DNA of 64,000 nucleotides, taken from NCBI RefSeq assembly GCF_000317475.1, contig NC_019729.1, positions 5,904,501 through 5,968,500 of the forward strand, written 5' to 3'. Positions 7,793-16,989 of the stretch are shown piece after piece. The DNA comes from Oscillatoria nigro-viridis PCC 7112 (GTDB taxonomy: Bacteria; Cyanobacteriota; Cyanobacteriia; Cyanobacteriales; Microcoleaceae). The translations under genes and the position numbers were made by a program. The notes under the pieces were generated by a model. The model did not search any database. It worked only from the letters and a program-made list of their open reading frames with translations, and was not told the origin of the DNA. Numbering within the stretch: position 1 is the first letter of the stretch; each line of letters begins with the position of its first letter.

Positions 7793-7898
7793 AAATCAGC
7801 AATAAAAAACCTCAAACCGTTGATTTCTGGTGGGTTTGAGGTTTTTGTAGGCGCAAGCGGGCAGCGGGAATCGAACCCGCATAGTTAGCTTGGAAGGC
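7793..7898. repeat. attL: left attachment repeat with tRNA-Gly 3' remnant
   Basis: It contains a terminator-like hairpin (CCTCAAACC 7810-7818, GGTTTGAGG 7833-7841, reading towards lower coordinates into a T-run) and a 3' tRNA-Gly fragment at 7857-7898. Similarity to attR stops after GGAAGGC, inside the 5' strand of the anticodon stem. Just inside the element are short inverted repeats (AGGGA/TCCCT and GAACTG/CAGTTC at about 7901-7940). Confidence 0.9.
7857..7898 (-). pseudogene. tRNA-Gly 3'-half remnant
   Basis: This is the acceptor 3' strand, T arm and anticodon arm portion of the tRNA-Gly at 16920-16989, base for base. The D arm and 5' acceptor strand are missing, so it cannot fold into a tRNA. 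It is the chromosomal 3' half displaced when the element integrated. Confidence 0.9.
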
Positions 7899-8030: not shown

Positions 8031-9269
8031 ATGGTCAATCTTCCACCAAGCAAAGCTAAAAAAGGTTCCGTAGTCGTTCAAACCAATCAGGGCCGACTAC
8101 GCTTGCAGATGCCGAGACAGCTTTGTGGAGGGCATCAAAAATTCCTGTACCTGAATCTGGCAGATACCCCTGAGAACTGGGAATTGGCAGAAGCTAAAGC
8201 ACGGGTGATTGAATCTGACATCAAGTTTGAGCGGTTTGACCCCACACTCAAAAAGTACAAGTCACAGACTCACTTGACTGTTGTTGAGACAATCAAGCCT
8301 AAGCCGGAACTGACGCTGACTAAGTTGTTTGCTAAATACTTGGAATTCAAGAAGCCAGCACTCAAGGCGACAACTTTCAACTACTTGGTAACGGGCATTC
8401 AAAGTTATATTGACCGTTGCCCCTACCAGCCTCTGTCAGAGGACTGTGCTTTGCAGGTACGCGCTTGGCTGTTGGAGGATACGACTAACAGCATGACTAA
8501 GAGGATTTTGACTCACCTAAATGCAGCGGTTAAATGGGGGATTAAGTTCAAGATTGTTAAGGGTTTAACTGTATCCCCGTTTGAGGGACTAGCAGCGGAA
8601 TTGCCTAAGCATAACTGGGAAAGCGACCCGGAACCAAACGCATTTACAGCACAAGAAAAAGAGCTGGTGTTGGAGGCTTTCAAAAACCACAGAGGGACTT
8701 GGAACGGGAGGGGAGAAACCGGGCAAAAGTTTTGTTTTTACTACCCAATGGTGCAGTTCTGGCTGCTGACTGGATGCCGTCCCTCTGAAGCTGTGGGTTT
8801 GAGGTGGTGTGACATTGCCCCTGACTTTTCTCACATTGTGTTTAACGGGAGCATACAACACCCAAGCGGTAAGGAGACAAGGGTTGACGGCAGCAAAAAC
8901 AATAAGCGGCGCAAATTTCCTTGCAATCAAGAATTGATTCAGTTGCTAAAAAGTATCAAGCCACAAAATCTGACTGACAAAGATAGGTTAGTTTTCCCAT
9001 CACCTGTTAAGGGCAAGGCGATTAATTACAACAATTTCACTAAGCAGGTATGGCACAAATTAGTTGACCCGATTACCGAAAAAACCAGGCAACACGAACA
9101 GGATTGTAAGACAACTACCCCTTACTCGTGCCGGGATACTTTCATTAGCGAACAGGTTGGCAAGGGTGTGCCGAGTGCGGTGGTTGCTAAATGGTGTGAT
9201 ACGTCGGAAAGGGTGATTAATTCTGTGTATTTAGACGGCAAGATTTTGGAGCATTTACGCCCGCTTTGA
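8031..9269 (+). CDS. Tyrosine recombinase (integrase)
   Basis: A 412-residue phage-type integrase that would recombine attP on the element with the tRNA-Gly attB. An N-terminal arm/core-binding region (residues 1-200, including TLTKLFAKYLEFKKPALKATT) precedes the catalytic domain. Visible catalytic residues are Arg250 in TGCRPSEA, a likely Lys near 290 in SKNNKRRKF, Arg368 in YSCRDTF and the nucleophile Tyr400 in SVYLDGK. The usual His of HxxR is Tyr365 here, and the usual LGH box reads WCDTS. These variants occur in divergent cyanobacterial integrases but deserve a check. The gene lies beside attL. Confidence 0.9.
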   Translation: MVNLPPSKAKKGSVVVQTNQGRLRLQMPRQLCGGHQKFLYLNLADTPENWELAEAKARVIESDIKFERFDPTLKKYKSQTHLTVVETIKPKPELTLTKLFAKYLEFKKPALKATTFNYLVTGIQSYIDRCPYQPLSEDCALQVRAWLLEDTTNSMTKRILTHLNAAVKWGIKFKIVKGLTVSPFEGLAAELPKHNWESDPEPNAFTAQEKELVLEAFKNHRGTWNGRGETGQKFCFYYPMVQFWLLTGCRPSEAVGLRWCDIAPDFSHIVFNGSIQHPSGKETRVDGSKNNKRRKFPCNQELIQLLKSIKPQNLTDKDRLVFPSPVKGKAINYNNFTKQVWHKLVDPITEKTRQHEQDCKTTTPYSCRDTFISEQVGKGVPSAVVAKWCDTSERVINSVYLDGKILEHLRPL

Positions 9270-9463: not shown

Positions 9464-9868
9464 ATGCCACTTTCAGCCGATTGTCCTAACGGACGATCGC
9501 AATTCTTTACGCAATCTCGTGTCCGAAAATTTGGACATCTATTCAGTTGGAAGGATTTAGCCCGTCGCGAAAATCTAAGACGCTCAAATAGCAGTCTGTA
9601 CCGATTTGTATTTTCACCAGCAATTTTTGCTCAACTTCCCCGCCCGAAATTTCTTATCGGGGACAAGATTTCCGACCACTGGATAGATGAGTTCGACAAA
9701 GAGTGTGTCGAGTTTGGTGAAGTCGTTGGAGTTTCTTGGCATCCAACCCAAAGTGAGTGGGCTTACCTAGTTAATTGGACTTCTGGCGAAGGCCCGGATT
9801 CTATTTACCCCTGCTTCGATGAGCACTTGGTAATCGGCGGTGACTTGAGGCTTGTCAGCCATGACTGA
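9464..9868 (+). CDS. Hypothetical protein, first gene of element operon
   Basis: A 134-residue soluble protein. The C-terminal half (KFLIGDKISDHWIDEF to FDEHLVIGGDLRLV) looks like a small beta-rich domain with conserved-looking Trp residues in VSWHPTQSEWAYLVNW. I do not recognise a family. The start is supported by GGAG ten bases upstream of the ATG. The stop overlaps the ATG of the next gene by 8 bp, so the two are translationally coupled. It is a candidate accessory or regulatory factor by position only. Confidence 0.6.
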   Translation: MPLSADCPNGRSQFFTQSRVRKFGHLFSWKDLARRENLRRSNSSLYRFVFSPAIFAQLPRPKFLIGDKISDHWIDEFDKECVEFGEVVGVSWHPTQSEWAYLVNWTSGEGPDSIYPCFDEHLVIGGDLRLVSHD

Positions 9869-10394
9869 GCCCGCCATCAGCTACCGTCGCATTGACAAAC
9901 TCAGGGCGATCGCCTTTGACCGTGGATTCACCAATGAAGACGCCAAGCAGTTTGGGAAGCTTTCTAAAACTGCTACGTGGGAAGCGCTGCTGGAACTTTA
10001 CCTGGTTGACGGTGAATCGCTTGACACAGTGCTAGACGTGCCACTAGACACTGTAGACATACCGCTAGACATCACGCCTGAACCGCTTGACCCGCAAGCT
10101 GTAGACACTGTAGACATACCGCTAGACACCACGCCTGAACCGCTTGACCCGCAAGCTGTAGACACTGTAGACACCCTAGATTGGACTAACGACGGTTCGT
10201 TCCCTGTGTGTGGCTTCACCCGCCAGAATTCCACTAGCTTTTTAGACTGGGTTGACCTTGGGCAACTCATCGCACTCATACTCGCATCGACGGGGGTGTT
10301 TGTACTGGCTATGTCTATGTGGCGACAAATCAATCCCCTGAATTTATTTCCCTCTCCTGTTCGTATCAACATTCAAATCGGGACAAAATTATGA
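9861..10394 (+). CDS. Single-pass membrane protein carrying a 19-residue tandem repeat
   Basis: A 177-residue protein: a helical N-terminal domain (KLRAIAFDRGFTNEDAKQFG), a repeat region of 19-residue units (VDTVDIPLDTTPEPLDPQA), then one membrane helix (LGQLIALILASTGVFVLAM) and a short basic tail. The start is the ATG at 9861, with GAGG ten bases upstream, rather than the TTG at 9852. The repeat DNA is an array of TGTAGACA motifs, listed separately. The stop overlaps the next ATG as ATGA. Its function is unknown. Confidence 0.65.
   Translation: MTEPAISYRRIDKLRAIAFDRGFTNEDAKQFGKLSKTATWEALLELYLVDGESLDTVLDVPLDTVDIPLDITPEPLDPQAVDTVDIPLDTTPEPLDPQAVDTVDTLDWTNDGSFPVCGFTRQNSTSFLDWVDLGQLIALILASTGVFVLAMSMWRQINPLNLFPSPVRINIQIGTKL
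10043..10178 (+). repeat. 57-bp tandem repeat with TGTAGACA motifs inside a gene
   Basis: About 2.4 copies of a 57-bp unit begin at 10043, 10100 and 10157. Exact TGTAGACA occurs at 10052, 10100, 10109, 10157 and 10166, with CTAGAC half-matches between. Paired motifs are 9 bp apart, as in the array at 16024-16360, where the same octamer is found in both orientations. The repeat encodes a Pro/Asp-rich linker. Confidence 0.85.
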
Positions 10395-12870: not shown

Positions 12871-12912
12871 AAAACCGCTGCCTTCAATTGGTACCTGAAC
12901 CGCAACGGTTTT
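12871..12912 (+). terminator. Hairpin terminator upstream of the primase gene
   Basis: AAAACCGCTGC (12871-12881) pairs with GCAACGGTTTT (12902-12912), with one G-T-type mismatch, and ends in a T-run. It would separate the primase message from upstream transcription. It also covers the earliest in-frame GTG-type start at 12888, supporting the later ATG at 12954 as the true start. Confidence 0.6.
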
Positions 12913-12953
12913 TAGTAATTCACCCATCTCTTAGAAAGACGAGACAAATCATC

Positions 12954-15900
12954 ATGTCCCACAATGTTAACTCGAATGACGGGCAAACATCAAGCACCCC
13001 CAAAAAATTCGACATCCGCGACCATCTCGACAAACTGGAACCAGGCAAAGCCAAAAATTACTACACTTGCCCTGTCTGCGAAGGTCATAGCTTAGGGATT
13101 AACTCCAAGAACGGCAAGTACCAATGCTGGACGAACGCTTGCTCAACCGCTGATATTCGGGAAGCTATCCGGCCACTGGCTGAATTTTTAGCAGAGTGCA
13201 AAGAGGACAATCCCGCATCACAAGCAAAGAAGCCAAAAGCCAAAAAGAAGGAATACCGACCCGTACCAGTTCCGATCGGCGCGAAACTTCTGAGATTACC
13301 CGCACCCGGAAAACCACCTCGTGCCGAACAACCCAAATACGTTCCCAAAGGCGTTCCAGACAGTGCCACACAAATCACCTACGCCTACAGCGACACTCAA
13401 AAGGTTTTGCGGTTTGATTGGCCCGACGCCAGTAAGCCAAAGGGACGCGACAAAACTTGCCGCCAAATCCACATAGACCCCAGTGGCAAGGAAATTTGGA
13501 GCAAGGGCGATGCTCGCTGGCCGGCATATCGGATTGACGAAGTTGTGCAATTACTGGAAGCACTACCCGATGATGAACCCGTCCTCGTTCTGGCACTTGA
13601 AGGGGAAAATAACGTAGAACTTGCACGGGACATCAGTGTAGCGGCCCTGACTCTGCAAGGTTCCAATTGGAGCCATGTCGAAATTCAAATAATGCTCGAA
13701 ACTCTGCAAGCGACAGGCAAAAACGTCGCCGTTGCAGTGTTGCGCGATAACGACGACGCGGGCATCAAGAAGAGCCAAGAAGTTTGGCTGGTTGCCCGTC
13801 ACATTCAGCTCCCTTGCGTGGTTGTTGACCCGCGTGTCATCCACCCAAAAATCCCAGAGGCGGGAGACATCAGAGAAATCTTGGAAGCCATAGATAGTGA
13901 GGAATTCATTCGGCGGGTAGAGGAAGCAGTCAATAACGTTGCAGCGGAATCAATTACTTCTATTTCTCTAACTCCTCACCCGCGCACGCGAGAAGAAGTA
14001 GTATGCCAGAAGTATGACAGTAGTGAAAGTGACTACATCCCAGACACTGCACCGACTCCAGAGCAAAACTACGTGCAGAAAGCTGTGGATGCGCTGTACT
14101 CTGACAAGCCTTGGGTATCGATAGCGGGGCAGCTTTTTGAATTCACCGGGACTCATTATGAGTTGCGATCGGAAGCTGCCGAGAAGCGACGTATTCTTGA
14201 TTGGCTGAGCACTTACTCTGAATTGGTAAAAGGGAAATATCGCTGCAATCGTTTTAACTCTGCCAGTGCTAACGAGGTCTACAACTGTATGGTCTTAGCT
14301 GTAGCCGTAGACCCTAACACCATCAATCCTGATGGGTTGAACTCTTCTAAAGGGATAGTGAAAATCAATCCTGATGGCTCTCACTCGCTTGTGCCGCATA
14401 ACCCTAACCAGGTCTATACGTATGTTGGCTGCAAGTATGACCCCGACATTGACCCGACTGACTGCGATCGCCTTTTGGAATGCTTGGAGCCGTCGCAGCG
14501 TGAGGTATTTTTGCGGACTGCTGCTGCTGCGCTGAATTTGAAGCTTGTCCGCTCTAAGCTGACGGGACGGGGCGTTAAAGGTTTGCTGTGCCACGGCGAG
14601 GGGTCTAACGGTAAAGATACATTGCGGGCTGTGTTGTCTGCTGTCTTTGGGCGGGGGATGACCGGGAAGTCTCTGTCAGATTTCAAGTCCTATGACAATG
14701 GCCGCAAGTTTTCTCTGGCAGGAATTGAAGGAAGTATTTGCAATTGGGCTTCCGAGAATACTGGAAAAATAGACCTCGACACCATCCAGAGTCTTAAACA
14801 GTTGATTACAGGCGACATTCTTGATATTGAACGCAAGGGCAAGGATGGTTATGAGTACAAACCTGCGGCCATCTTTTTAGCCAACTGCAACAAACTACCG
14901 TCTATCACCGGGGGGACGGCCGCCATTGATGACCGCTACAGCATCCTGAGTTTCGAGAAAACTTACAAGCACAACGCTGACCCGTCTCAGGGTGAATTGG
15001 AGGCTGACCCGCGTTTTAAGGATGATGAGAACTTTATCCTTGAACGGATTGCACCGGCGATGCTTAACAAGATGTTGGAGCGGTTGCCGCTGTTGTTGAA
15101 AGAGGGGATTGACTACAAGGCAACTCGTGAGGCGATGCGGGAAGCTCAAGAGGGAAGTCGGCACTTGTGGCAGTTTGCGCGCGAGGTTGGTCTGGAGGTT
15201 CAGTCTGGTGGGCGTGTTTGGCTTAAAGACTTATGGCAAAAGTTGCAAAACTGGTATGAGGATGCAGGGATTCTAGAGAGAGAGACTAGCGGCACCAAGG
15301 AGAAGCTGATTTGGAATGAACTTCCTAGTAAGTATGACGCTCCTGTAAAAGCTATAAACCAGTTGTACTCAAGGTTATGTGAAATTTTCCCTAAAGTACA
15401 AGTCCATCGCTGTGAAGACCGCAACAACCCAGAGCGAAGAGGTCAAAAATACTTGCTCGGAATCAATTTTGTGCAAAGTTCTACAACAGCTCATAAAACT
15501 GGGTTGGCAGAGTTGGCAGTAGACACAGCAATGGTTACAGGGTTGGCAAGTGGGTTGGCAAGTGAGTTGGCAAAAAATACTGCCAACCCAGTTGCCAACC
15601 CACAAACCCTTACACAGAGGGCTGCCAACTCTGCCAACCCAATTTCCTCACCTTTTGCGGAAGTGTGCAATTTACTCTCTCAACTCACCGATGACGAGCG
15701 GCGGAAGTTGGCAGAATTACTGGTGAAACCTCAACCATTGGTTCAGAAAGTTACTCCCGAAGATGCCCAGGCGATGCGAGACATAGCACTGGTGTGGTGG
15801 CACGAATACTACCCAGAACAACTACAAACTCTCCAAACACAAATGTTTGGCTGGCAGGCACCGGGCAAAAAATACGACATAGCTACGATTGCTCAGTGGT

Positions 15901-15968
15901 TGGAAGGAGAAGTGGAAGCCGTTCGCGATCGAATTGCTGAACTCATCCGTCTCCAAGGAGAAATTTAG
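12954..15968 (+). CDS. Primase-helicase (zinc finger, Toprim-like, D5_N/SF3 helicase)
   Basis: A 1,004-residue replication protein of the plasmid/phage P4 primase family. A zinc ribbon (Cys39, Cys42, Cys58, Cys63 in YTCPVCEGH and YQCWTNACS) is followed by a Toprim/DUF3854-like region at about 208-310 (LALEGENN, LRDNDDAG, DIREIL). A D5_N-like region precedes an SF3 helicase with Walker A GEGSNGKDT (about 548-556) and motif C FLANCNKLP (about 640-648). Residues about 850-896 are a repetitive linker encoded by the TTGGCA array. A C-terminal helical segment follows. It probably initiates replication of the excised element. Confidence 0.9.
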   Translation: MSHNVNSNDGQTSSTPKKFDIRDHLDKLEPGKAKNYYTCPVCEGHSLGINSKNGKYQCWTNACSTADIREAIRPLAEFLAECKEDNPASQAKKPKAKKKEYRPVPVPIGAKLLRLPAPGKPPRAEQPKYVPKGVPDSATQITYAYSDTQKVLRFDWPDASKPKGRDKTCRQIHIDPSGKEIWSKGDARWPAYRIDEVVQLLEALPDDEPVLVLALEGENNVELARDISVAALTLQGSNWSHVEIQIMLETLQATGKNVAVAVLRDNDDAGIKKSQEVWLVARHIQLPCVVVDPRVIHPKIPEAGDIREILEAIDSEEFIRRVEEAVNNVAAESITSISLTPHPRTREEVVCQKYDSSESDYIPDTAPTPEQNYVQKAVDALYSDKPWVSIAGQLFEFTGTHYELRSEAAEKRRILDWLSTYSELVKGKYRCNRFNSASANEVYNCMVLAVAVDPNTINPDGLNSSKGIVKINPDGSHSLVPHNPNQVYTYVGCKYDPDIDPTDCDRLLECLEPSQREVFLRTAAAALNLKLVRSKLTGRGVKGLLCHGEGSNGKDTLRAVLSAVFGRGMTGKSLSDFKSYDNGRKFSLAGIEGSICNWASENTGKIDLDTIQSLKQLITGDILDIERKGKDGYEYKPAAIFLANCNKLPSITGGTAAIDDRYSILSFEKTYKHNADPSQGELEADPRFKDDENFILERIAPAMLNKMLERLPLLLKEGIDYKATREAMREAQEGSRHLWQFAREVGLEVQSGGRVWLKDLWQKLQNWYEDAGILERETSGTKEKLIWNELPSKYDAPVKAINQLYSRLCEIFPKVQVHRCEDRNNPERRGQKYLLGINFVQSSTTAHKTGLAELAVDTAMVTGLASGLASELAKNTANPVANPQTLTQRAANSANPISSPFAEVCNLLSQLTDDERRKLAELLVKPQPLVQKVTPEDAQAMRDIALVWWHEYYPEQLQTLQTQMFGWQAPGKKYDIATIAQWLEGEVEAVRDRIAELIRLQGEI
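15501..15640. repeat. Mirror-symmetric TTGGCA array within the primase gene, origin-like
   Basis: TTGGCA starts at 15504, 15513, 15543, 15555 and 15567; TGCCAA starts at 15581, 15593, 15623 and 15632. Four pairs are placed exactly symmetrically about 15570.5, and the fifth unit covers the centre. The outer 19 bases of each arm are identical complements, and the inner 21 bases match at 20. The encoded peptide is a Gly/Ala/Asn linker. The pattern resembles iterons of replication origins such as those bound by P4 alpha protein. Confidence 0.85.
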
Positions 15969-16023: not shown

Positions 16024-16107
16024 TGTCTACAAGTTTTGTCTACAAACTGTTGACACTGTAGACAGATATCAGTTAGTGTAGACAAATACTGTATATAGGT
16101 GTCTACA
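16024..16107. promoter_or_regulatory. TGTCTACA operator cluster upstream of the RHH gene
   Basis: TGTCTACA lies at 16024, 16037 and 16100, and its complement TGTAGACA at 16057 and 16077. A TTGACA hexamer (16050-16055) that could be a -35 box lies among them, and the last site abuts the ATG at 16108. Binding by the downstream ribbon-helix-helix protein would shut its own promoter. That assignment is inference. Confidence 0.65.
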
Positions 16108-16440
16108 ATGAGTCAAAGTCAAGTCGTATCGTTCAGGGCTTCCGGTCACTTCCTAAACTGGATAGAGGCTCAGAGGCTAGATGGTGAGTCGGTCAGTCAA
16201 GCTGCACAACGCATCCTCAAGGAAGTCTCAGGCACGTCTACAACAGTGTCTACAATGTCTACACCAAGCGACACTAACGTGCTGTCTACATCGTCTACAG
16301 ATTTGTCTACACGAAGCGATAACAGCGTCGCGTCTACAAATATTGTAGACACTGTAGACAAGGCTGTAGCCGATCGCCTTGACCCCGTGATGGAGCGGAT
16401 GGCCGCCATTGAGGAACGGCTGGGAAAATTGAGTGCCTGA
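16108..16440 (+). CDS. Ribbon-helix-helix DNA-binding protein with repeat-encoded linker
   Basis: A 110-residue protein. The N-terminus (SQVVSFRASGHFLNWIEAQ, then SVSQAAQRILKEV) fits the strand-helix-helix of CopG/Arc/Omega-type regulators. The middle is a Ser/Thr/Asp linker of VST, MST and LST triplets, encoded by TGTCTACA copies. The C-terminus (RLDPVMERMAAIEERLGKL) is a short coiled coil. The ATG at 16108 has AGGTG six bases upstream, whereas the GTG at 16099 has none. It is likely an autoregulator or partition/copy-control protein of the element, by inference. Confidence 0.75.
   Translation: MSQSQVVSFRASGHFLNWIEAQRLDGESVSQAAQRILKEVSGTSTTVSTMSTPSDTNVLSTSSTDLSTRSDNSVASTNIVDTVDKAVADRLDPVMERMAAIEERLGKLSA
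16235..16360. repeat. TGTCTACA array inside the RHH coding sequence
   Basis: Nine further sites: TGTCTACA at 16247, 16256, 16283 and 16304, CGTCTACA at 16235, 16292 and 16331, and TGTAGACA at 16344 and 16353. Many neighbours are 9 or 12 bp apart, multiples of three that keep the reading frame. With the five upstream sites this makes 14 in about 340 bp. Confidence 0.85.
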
Positions 16441-16855: not shown

Positions 16856-16961
16856 AAATCAGCAATAAAAAACCTCAAACCGTTGATTTCTCGTTGGTTT
16901 GAGGTTTTTGTAGGCGCAAGCGGGCAGCGGGAATCGAACCCGCATAGTTAGCTTGGAAGGC
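16856..16961. repeat. attR: right attachment repeat
   Basis: This is the second copy of the 106-bp repeat, offset 9,063 bp from attL with two differences, both in the terminator loop. It supplies the 3' half of the functional tRNA-Gly and its terminator, so the tRNA gene stays whole after integration. Confidence 0.9.
16867..16904 (-). terminator. tRNA-Gly terminator carried by the element
   Basis: CCTCAAACC (16873-16881) and GGTTTGAGG (16896-16904) form a nine-bp stem. Read on the minus strand it is followed by TTTTTTATT. It lies 16 bp beyond the tRNA 3' end. Confidence 0.8.
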
Positions 16962-16989
16962 TAAAGTTTTACCACTAAACTATGCCCGC
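16920..16989 (-). tRNA. tRNA-Gly (anticodon TCC)
   Basis: A 70-nt cloverleaf: acceptor GCGGGCA/TGCCCGC, D arm GTTT...AAAC, anticodon arm TTAGC-CTTCCAA-GCTAA, and T arm GCGGG-TTCGATT-CCCGC. CCA is not encoded. The 5' 28 nt are chromosomal and the rest comes from the integrated element. Confidence 0.95.

Follow-up and report, generated by a model that had tools for sequence, protein, structure and literature searches.

A mirror-symmetric iteron array inside a cyanobacterial primase-helicase gene, a probable replication origin of an integrated element

The integrated element and its primase-helicase

The gene described here belongs to Oscillatoria nigro-viridis PCC 7112 and lies in a window, that is the whole stretch of DNA analysed, of 64,000 nucleotides. 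It encodes a primase-helicase and is part of an element of about 9 kb integrated at a tRNA-Gly gene. The features of the locus, by position in the window, are the following:

7793..7898, no strand: att-like repeat at the left end, 106 bp, with 2 mismatches against the right copy
8031..9269, plus strand: tyrosine integrase of the element, beside the left end (a PHROG match is among the basis of this assignment)
12888..15968, plus strand: primase-helicase ORF, 1026 aa (DUF5906; PHROG DNA primase)
14592..14906, plus strand: DUF5906 domain, aa 569-673 (E 1.8e-13), an SF3-type helicase by inference
15153..15506, plus strand: putative DNA-recognition segment, aa 756-873, proposed from word covariation; winged-helix-like by inference, fold unconfirmed
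15501..15640, no strand: mirror-symmetric iteron array of nine TTGGCA/TGCCAA units, centre 15570.5, inside the primase-helicase gene
15504..15560, plus strand: left arm, TTGGCA at 15504, 15513, 15543 and 15555 (spacing 9, 30, 12)
15519..15542, plus strand: left spacer GTAGACACAGCAATGGTTACAGGG, by eye alike in several relatives with another iteron word
15567..15572, plus strand: fifth TTGGCA unit, near the centre
15581..15637, minus strand: right arm, TGCCAA at 15581, 15593, 15623 and 15632 (spacing 12, 30, 9)
15599..15622, plus strand: right spacer, a block like AA(C/T)CCTTACRCAGAG, by eye alike in close relatives with another word
15690..15965, plus strand: C-terminal tail, aa 935-1026; relatives have other tails in its stead, and PHROG 36873 is matched by aa 951-1022
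16856..16961, no strand: att-like repeat at the right end, over the 3' part of the tRNA-Gly gene
16919-16989, minus strand: tRNA-Gly

The ORF as listed begins with TTG, although translation may in truth start from the ATG at codon 23. Its DUF5906 match exceeds the gathering score and was the only one in a Pfam scan at E<=0.01, in which neither RepA_N nor DUF3854 was found. Several PHROG families of DNA primases are matched as well (best E 4.4e-25). The kinship with P4 alpha, proposed in an initial annotation made from the DNA alone, is an approximate one: the P4-family model TIGR01613 gives 72.4 bits, under its cut-off of 108.7, and the only solved chain matching at E<=1 is the DNA primase 7ola (E 2.4e-4), which we take to be the SaPI5 primase-helicase. 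For the recognition segment, profile searches of the PDB and Pfam gave no winged-helix match of note, and AlphaFold prediction of aa 765-880 (two sequences) reached a mean pLDDT of 42.8; its winged-helix nature is an inference from family resemblance.

Judged by eye, the C-terminal tail is a swapped module occurring in three kinds. The genome of PCC 7112 carries two further long relatives of the enzyme, L002 (84%) and L003 (81%). The same C-terminal tail is also found at the end of two otherwise different proteins of this genome, L004 and L005, on contigs C3 and C4.

Geometry of the array

The initial annotation had described four TTGGCA/TGCCAA pairs mirrored about one point, with spacings of 9, 30 and 12 repeated in reverse; all were found, the centre being common to the four plus/minus pairs. 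The fifth unit, which had been placed at the centre, is present, but its midpoint is 1 bp off the exact one. The arms are near-complementary as had been reported, but the figure of 40 of 70 bases was too low, a recount giving 50 complementary positions of 70 within 70 bp and 47 of 60 once the central 10 bp are excluded. This last value makes the array the best centre of the 64-kb window (runner-up 37; centres within the gene average 14.8 of 60, sd 3.5), and a repeat search at the array returned arms of 89 nt, 74% complementary. A tenth TTGGCA, at 15708, is not part of the symmetric set.

TTGGCA occurs 81 times in the window against 52.7 expected (the largest of 100 shuffles had 69), which is a moderate enrichment only; the array is unusual by clustering and symmetry, not by the frequency of its word. 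When the 181-bp array region was compared with the genome of PCC 7112 there was, besides itself and its own reverse complement, a partial match to the linker of a paralogue and no other full copy. A dispersed palindromic repeat is rejected for lack of a second full copy in the genome.

Relatives keep the place of the array and change its word

Relatives of the primase-helicase were found in 19 of 61 family genomes and in 41 of 291 order genomes searched, the latter taken from a larger group and overlapping the 61; one scan of viral contigs found none. All 16 close-relative loci whose linker was read have an array in the same place, the units of which are observed to change word together. The words include GTTGGCA (L001, L012, L010), GTTACCA (L009, L033), GGAGCCA (L002, L019), GGTTCCA (L003), TCCGCA (L013, L014) and TCGCAA (L016, L028), and others exist. 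Throughout this genus-level set the spacing 9/30/12 or 9/30/11, mirrored as 12/30/9, recurs. Identity among units of the same arm within an array is 0.75-1.00, against 0.34 between arrays (same-arm sets include matches with <=2 mismatches).

What is selected could be an mRNA hairpin or a DNA cruciform instead of protein sites, as the high complementarity of the window's arms (47/60) and the likeness of mirror partners, which equals or exceeds that of same-arm units in 15 of the 16 arrays with ties counted, would allow. Direct repeats within one arm are, however, also kept and co-changing, and pairing alone needs neither; moreover, in a number of other homologues the arms are unequal and about 100 bp apart. 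We consider this explanation highly improbable, and the cruciform suggested in the initial annotation is not needed.

Distant relatives (34-49% identical), among them those on plasmids of Nostoc and Calothrix, frequently carry an array with its own word at this position, and the unit spacings there are 9, 11-12 and 30-32; both observations were made by eye. Position and spacing of the array are constant across families. Altogether 26 distinct 8-mer words were assigned among 44 loci. Words and register were called by hand and include those of L091 and L092, two loci that do not pass the shuffle test described below; all 44 end in CA, an agreement that is partly by construction because a CA core was used to set the register. 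Six loci without an 8-mer (L020, L046, L050, L061, L067, L076) are outside the word count and the covariation analysis. L007 and L012, apparently a single locus present in two collections, count as one. L027 and L029, which equal L013 and L016 over the last 300 aa, and L036-L042, which repeat earlier loci, were dropped, and L101-L111 were left out.

Eight homologues of about 840 aa lack the tail (L051, L053-L056, L058, L060, L085), and no convincing array was seen at or behind the end of their genes, the downstream DNA covered being only about 60 bp in L060 and about 370 bp in L058. A weak ATTGCG cluster directly follows the stop codon in L055, where it is borderline (P 0.05), and in L080.

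Relatives with different words are co-resident in G000 (three), G011 (three) and Nostoc C057 (two). The apparent duplicates L013/L027 and L016/L029, on the other hand, share their words. As evidence of incompatibility the difference proves little, since so many words circulate.

Selection at the DNA level

For 49 loci, the window's own included, the coding sequence that follows the recognition segment was long enough to be tested. In 42 of them the 6-mer count over both strands went beyond 1000 synonymous-codon shuffles (P<=0.01), and 33 of these 42 have copies of the word in more than one frame. L020, L046, L061, L067, L076, L091 and L092 (P 0.019) did not pass at this threshold. The 49 were drawn from 64 loci with distinct ends; the 15 skipped were L015, L018, L097 and the eight loci of about 840 aa, for which no tail was read, L031, whose match stops short of the segment, and the three phages used as comparators. 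In the covariation analysis and the word count L018 was retained, as an open piece. Close kin among the tested loci, such as L066/L071/L074, L073/L075/L095, L044/L045 and L049/L078, are not independent.

Codons for the same residue were then compared between loci sharing a word. Those overlapping the units agree in 71 of 74 cases (four pairs), those of the helicase in 119 of 179, 104 of 167 and 51 of 124 (the three comparable pairs) and those of the recognition segment in 182 of 264 (four pairs); linker codons outside the units are also well conserved (82 of 94). Higher codon conservation at the array than elsewhere in the gene had been proposed as a check of the origin, and unit codons set against helicase codons turn out in its favour. 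By the shuffles and the codon comparisons, what is conserved is the DNA and not the peptide. Homologues which keep the protein linker and lose the TTGGCA sites were to count as a refutation, and none was met in the intended sense: relatives of the L002 type do lose TTGGCA, another repeated word stands in its positions, and with that word the peptide of the linker is different too.

The encoded linker is low-complexity, as the initial annotation stated, and it is on this ground that one could see in the array no more than the coding of such a linker, or a palindromic repeat that was inserted, without any role as DNA. Such a view is barely tenable in the face of copies in several frames, of their excess over synonymous shuffles, of the absence of another full copy in the genome and of a position and spacing that hold across families.

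The word follows the adjacent protein segment

Across the 16 genus-level loci, identity of the word correlates with identity of aa 830-873 (r=0.72; partial correlation given the helicase 0.66-0.68), while helicase aa 680-775 against the word, given the recognition segment, gives -0.11. For 28 other loci the segment-word correlation is 0.62, not much higher than that of the helicase alone (0.56 and 0.46), with partial correlations of 0.39 and 0.47. Sliding windows of 30 aa in the genus-level set show a rise at aa 755 and a peak of 0.74 at 830-860. The downstream flank right behind the array (aa 933-960) correlates with the word at only 0.15; linkage as the sole cause of the tracking is rejected, r of this flank being <=0.15. 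Mantel p values (floor 0.0005) are guides only, because the loci share ancestry.

Individual pairs have the look of module swaps. L013 and L014 have the same word and recognition segments 82-88% identical, with helicases 63-67% identical; L014 and L001 have helicases 91-93% identical, recognition segments 56-58% identical and different words. From the tracking of the word and from these swaps it is a natural inference, made in the absence of binding data, that the recognition segment binds the array.

Small plasmids, GC skew and phage comparators

The array is also present in very small replicons. NZ_CP138353 (4586 bp, strain AL20115) and NZ_CP149443 (4363 bp, strain AL20118) of Cyanobacterium aponinum are circular plasmids on which the primase-helicase (L089 and L090, respectively) is the only large ORF, accompanied by two small annotated genes each. 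Their main two-strand array is in the gene, at the same place, and the words differ. Records of both sizes, 4.6 and 4.4 kb, are listed for each strain, and to judge from these entries alone the two plasmids may coexist.

The large primase gene of L089 and L090 crosses the record start and is missing in the PLSDB gene table; to go by that table, both plasmids would seem to lack a gene for replication.

Of the 11 plasmid loci scanned, 7 have their in-gene word as the top two-strand 7-mer of the sequence available. In L076 first place goes to a word of A and T only at the gene end, which does not pass the shuffle test; for L067, L073 and L075 the leading two-strand word is found away from the in-gene array. 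Cumulative GC skew, drawn for 8 circular plasmids, gives no consistent signal at the array: the minimum is at the array only in L071 (74 bp away; amplitude P 0.09), and in L072, L075 and L076, with skew amplitudes of P<0.05, both extremes are more than 3 kb from it.

It is possible, although in our opinion unlikely, that the same protein binds the array as a copy-control, handcuffing or autoregulatory site and not as a replication start. Covariation speaks of recognition specificity and not of initiation, and GC skew does not point to the array; against this, the strongest two-strand repeat of both 4.4-4.6 kb plasmids sits at the array, and in SaPI/SCC systems, which are related, the putative origin consists of iterons near the helicase gene.

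Three phages with related primases served as comparators. Javan651 and GMA4 (L098 and L100) have significant two-strand arrays at or behind the gene end; in phage A25 (L099) no significant array was found.

A proposed in-gene origin

The best explanation, to which we give a probability of about 0.8, is that the array is the iteron origin of the 9-kb element, placed in the gene of its own initiator and read by the C-terminal segment of that protein; both the binding and the origin activity are inferred. An origin within the enzyme's own gene, as first proposed, is in this way supported in outline, by indirect evidence only, there being no binding or replication data.

The C-terminal DNA-binding segment of the primase-helicase (aa ~756-873), encoded just upstream, would recognise the repeated word. 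Its sites, spaced by 9-12 bp (about one helical turn) or 30 bp (three turns) and grouped in two clusters of opposite orientation, would bring together two protein assemblies face to face, a double assembly which is itself inferred; the helicase could then open the DNA, and both strands would be primed. The array DNA, between recognition segment and C-terminal tail, would contribute nothing but a flexible linker to the protein. The segment and the array may together be one cassette, exchanged between otherwise similar helicases and giving each replicon its own specificity; a role in compatibility is likewise an inference. Relatives in other cyanobacteria have this layout with another word and a correspondingly altered enzyme, which points to joint evolution of initiator and origin. 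We lean slightly towards the stronger proposal that a cassette of about 450 bp (recognition segment and iterons in one frame) moves as a unit between cyanobacterial DUF5906 primase-helicases and brings new specificities in one step, the roughly 26 words and their segments amounting to a readable recognition code.

In SaPI Rep and SCCmec Cch2 the C-terminal domain of the (primase-)helicase recognises short iterons beside the gene, and two hexamers have been proposed; SaPI origins lie directly downstream of the helicase gene and are recognised by its C-terminal domain (PMC7581432). The SaPI/SCCmec origin is in downstream non-coding DNA, whereas that proposed for the window's element is in the gene, before the C-terminal tail. 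Given the SaPI position and the phage arrays, the cyanobacterial case can be read as a SaPI-like origin enclosed by a C-terminal tail. P4 alpha combines primase, helicase and a winged-helix domain that binds origin repeats in a single protein (PMC4234260). The window's protein differs in reaching the P4-family model only below threshold. The P4 origin is not known to lie inside the alpha gene.

In-gene origins are already known in unrelated initiators. In pSK41, of the RepA_N type, the origin boxes are central in rep and are bound by the N-terminal domain encoded upstream, and the stretch encoded by the boxes is a linker dispensable for replication (PMC5703833). The pSK41 Rep is unrelated to the window's protein, which has no RepA_N domain; the likeness is in boxes inside the gene, which in the window's case are only inferred to bind the encoded protein. 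In lambda the iterons of the origin are situated centrally in gene O, which encodes the initiator (PMC3985674). Sites, layout and protein are unrelated to those described here. Lambda O is not known to be a helicase or a primase. Iterons outside the rep gene are described in PMC1626470 and PMC7145576.

CyRepA proteins, known from cyanobacterial plasmids, serve in replication and have a helicase part beside a primase-like one (PMC10079941, PMC10899382). They are DUF3854/DEXDc proteins, and DUF3854 was not found in the window's protein; the words DUF5906 and iteron are absent from the main texts of these two papers. A search of the literature for DUF5906 with cyanobacteria and plasmid gave no paper, and further searches, judged by title and beginning of abstract, gave none on in-gene iterons of such enzymes, most subscription papers being outside their coverage. 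What appears new is the combination, not found in the literature searched, of an SF3-like primase-helicase, a mirror layout and many natural words tracking the adjacent segment.

If the proposed origin is correct, a replication role and an origin can be given to a protein which in cyanobacterial plasmid records is mostly annotated as hypothetical or as "DUF5906 domain-containing", and it becomes clear how related replicons may gain distinct specificities. About two dozen natural matched pairs of initiator and iteron would be at hand for working out the recognition code, and compact, possibly mutually compatible replicons for cyanobacterial genetics.

The second array and further repeats

A small ORF (16108-16440) directly downstream of the primase-helicase was judged by eye to be of ribbon-helix-helix (RHH) type, without any family match. 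A second array at 16024-16360, made of the word TGTCTACA on either strand (eleven exact sites and near matches), covers its upstream region and the part of its coding sequence behind the N-terminal domain. These are possibly operator or partition sites, again partly within the gene of a DNA-binding protein.

Several relatives retain this array, in word as well as in position. Its word, TGTNTACA, is kept in L001, L002, L003, L010 and L013, which have four primase words among them; within 600 bp, the second array is absent in L007 and L009. As TGTNTACA is constant while the primase words differ, the two arrays change independently, and the second serves as an internal control for the tracking of words. 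With an RHH-like gene and its own array so close by, the primase array might be thought to hold sites for a different product of the element, such as a ribbon-helix-helix protein with a partition or regulatory function. We give this very little credence, the primase word tracking the adjacent primase segment and the second array changing independently of it. The RHH protein as reader of the primase array is disfavoured by the constancy of TGTNTACA.

Primase genes occur twice on one contig in two cases, L013/L027 and L016/L029, 9.1 and 7.1 kb apart. L027 and L029 have the same match score as L013 and L016 and are identical to them over the last 300 aa, as if the element had integrated in tandem.

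Two further repeats were noted. In the window, the ORF at 9852-10394 contains two tandem copies of 57 bp (10045-10173) and five exact sites of TGTCTACA, the word of the second array. Downstream of the primase in L009 there is an ORF ending in a repeated 'VTQQVTQQVT', perhaps another in-gene array.
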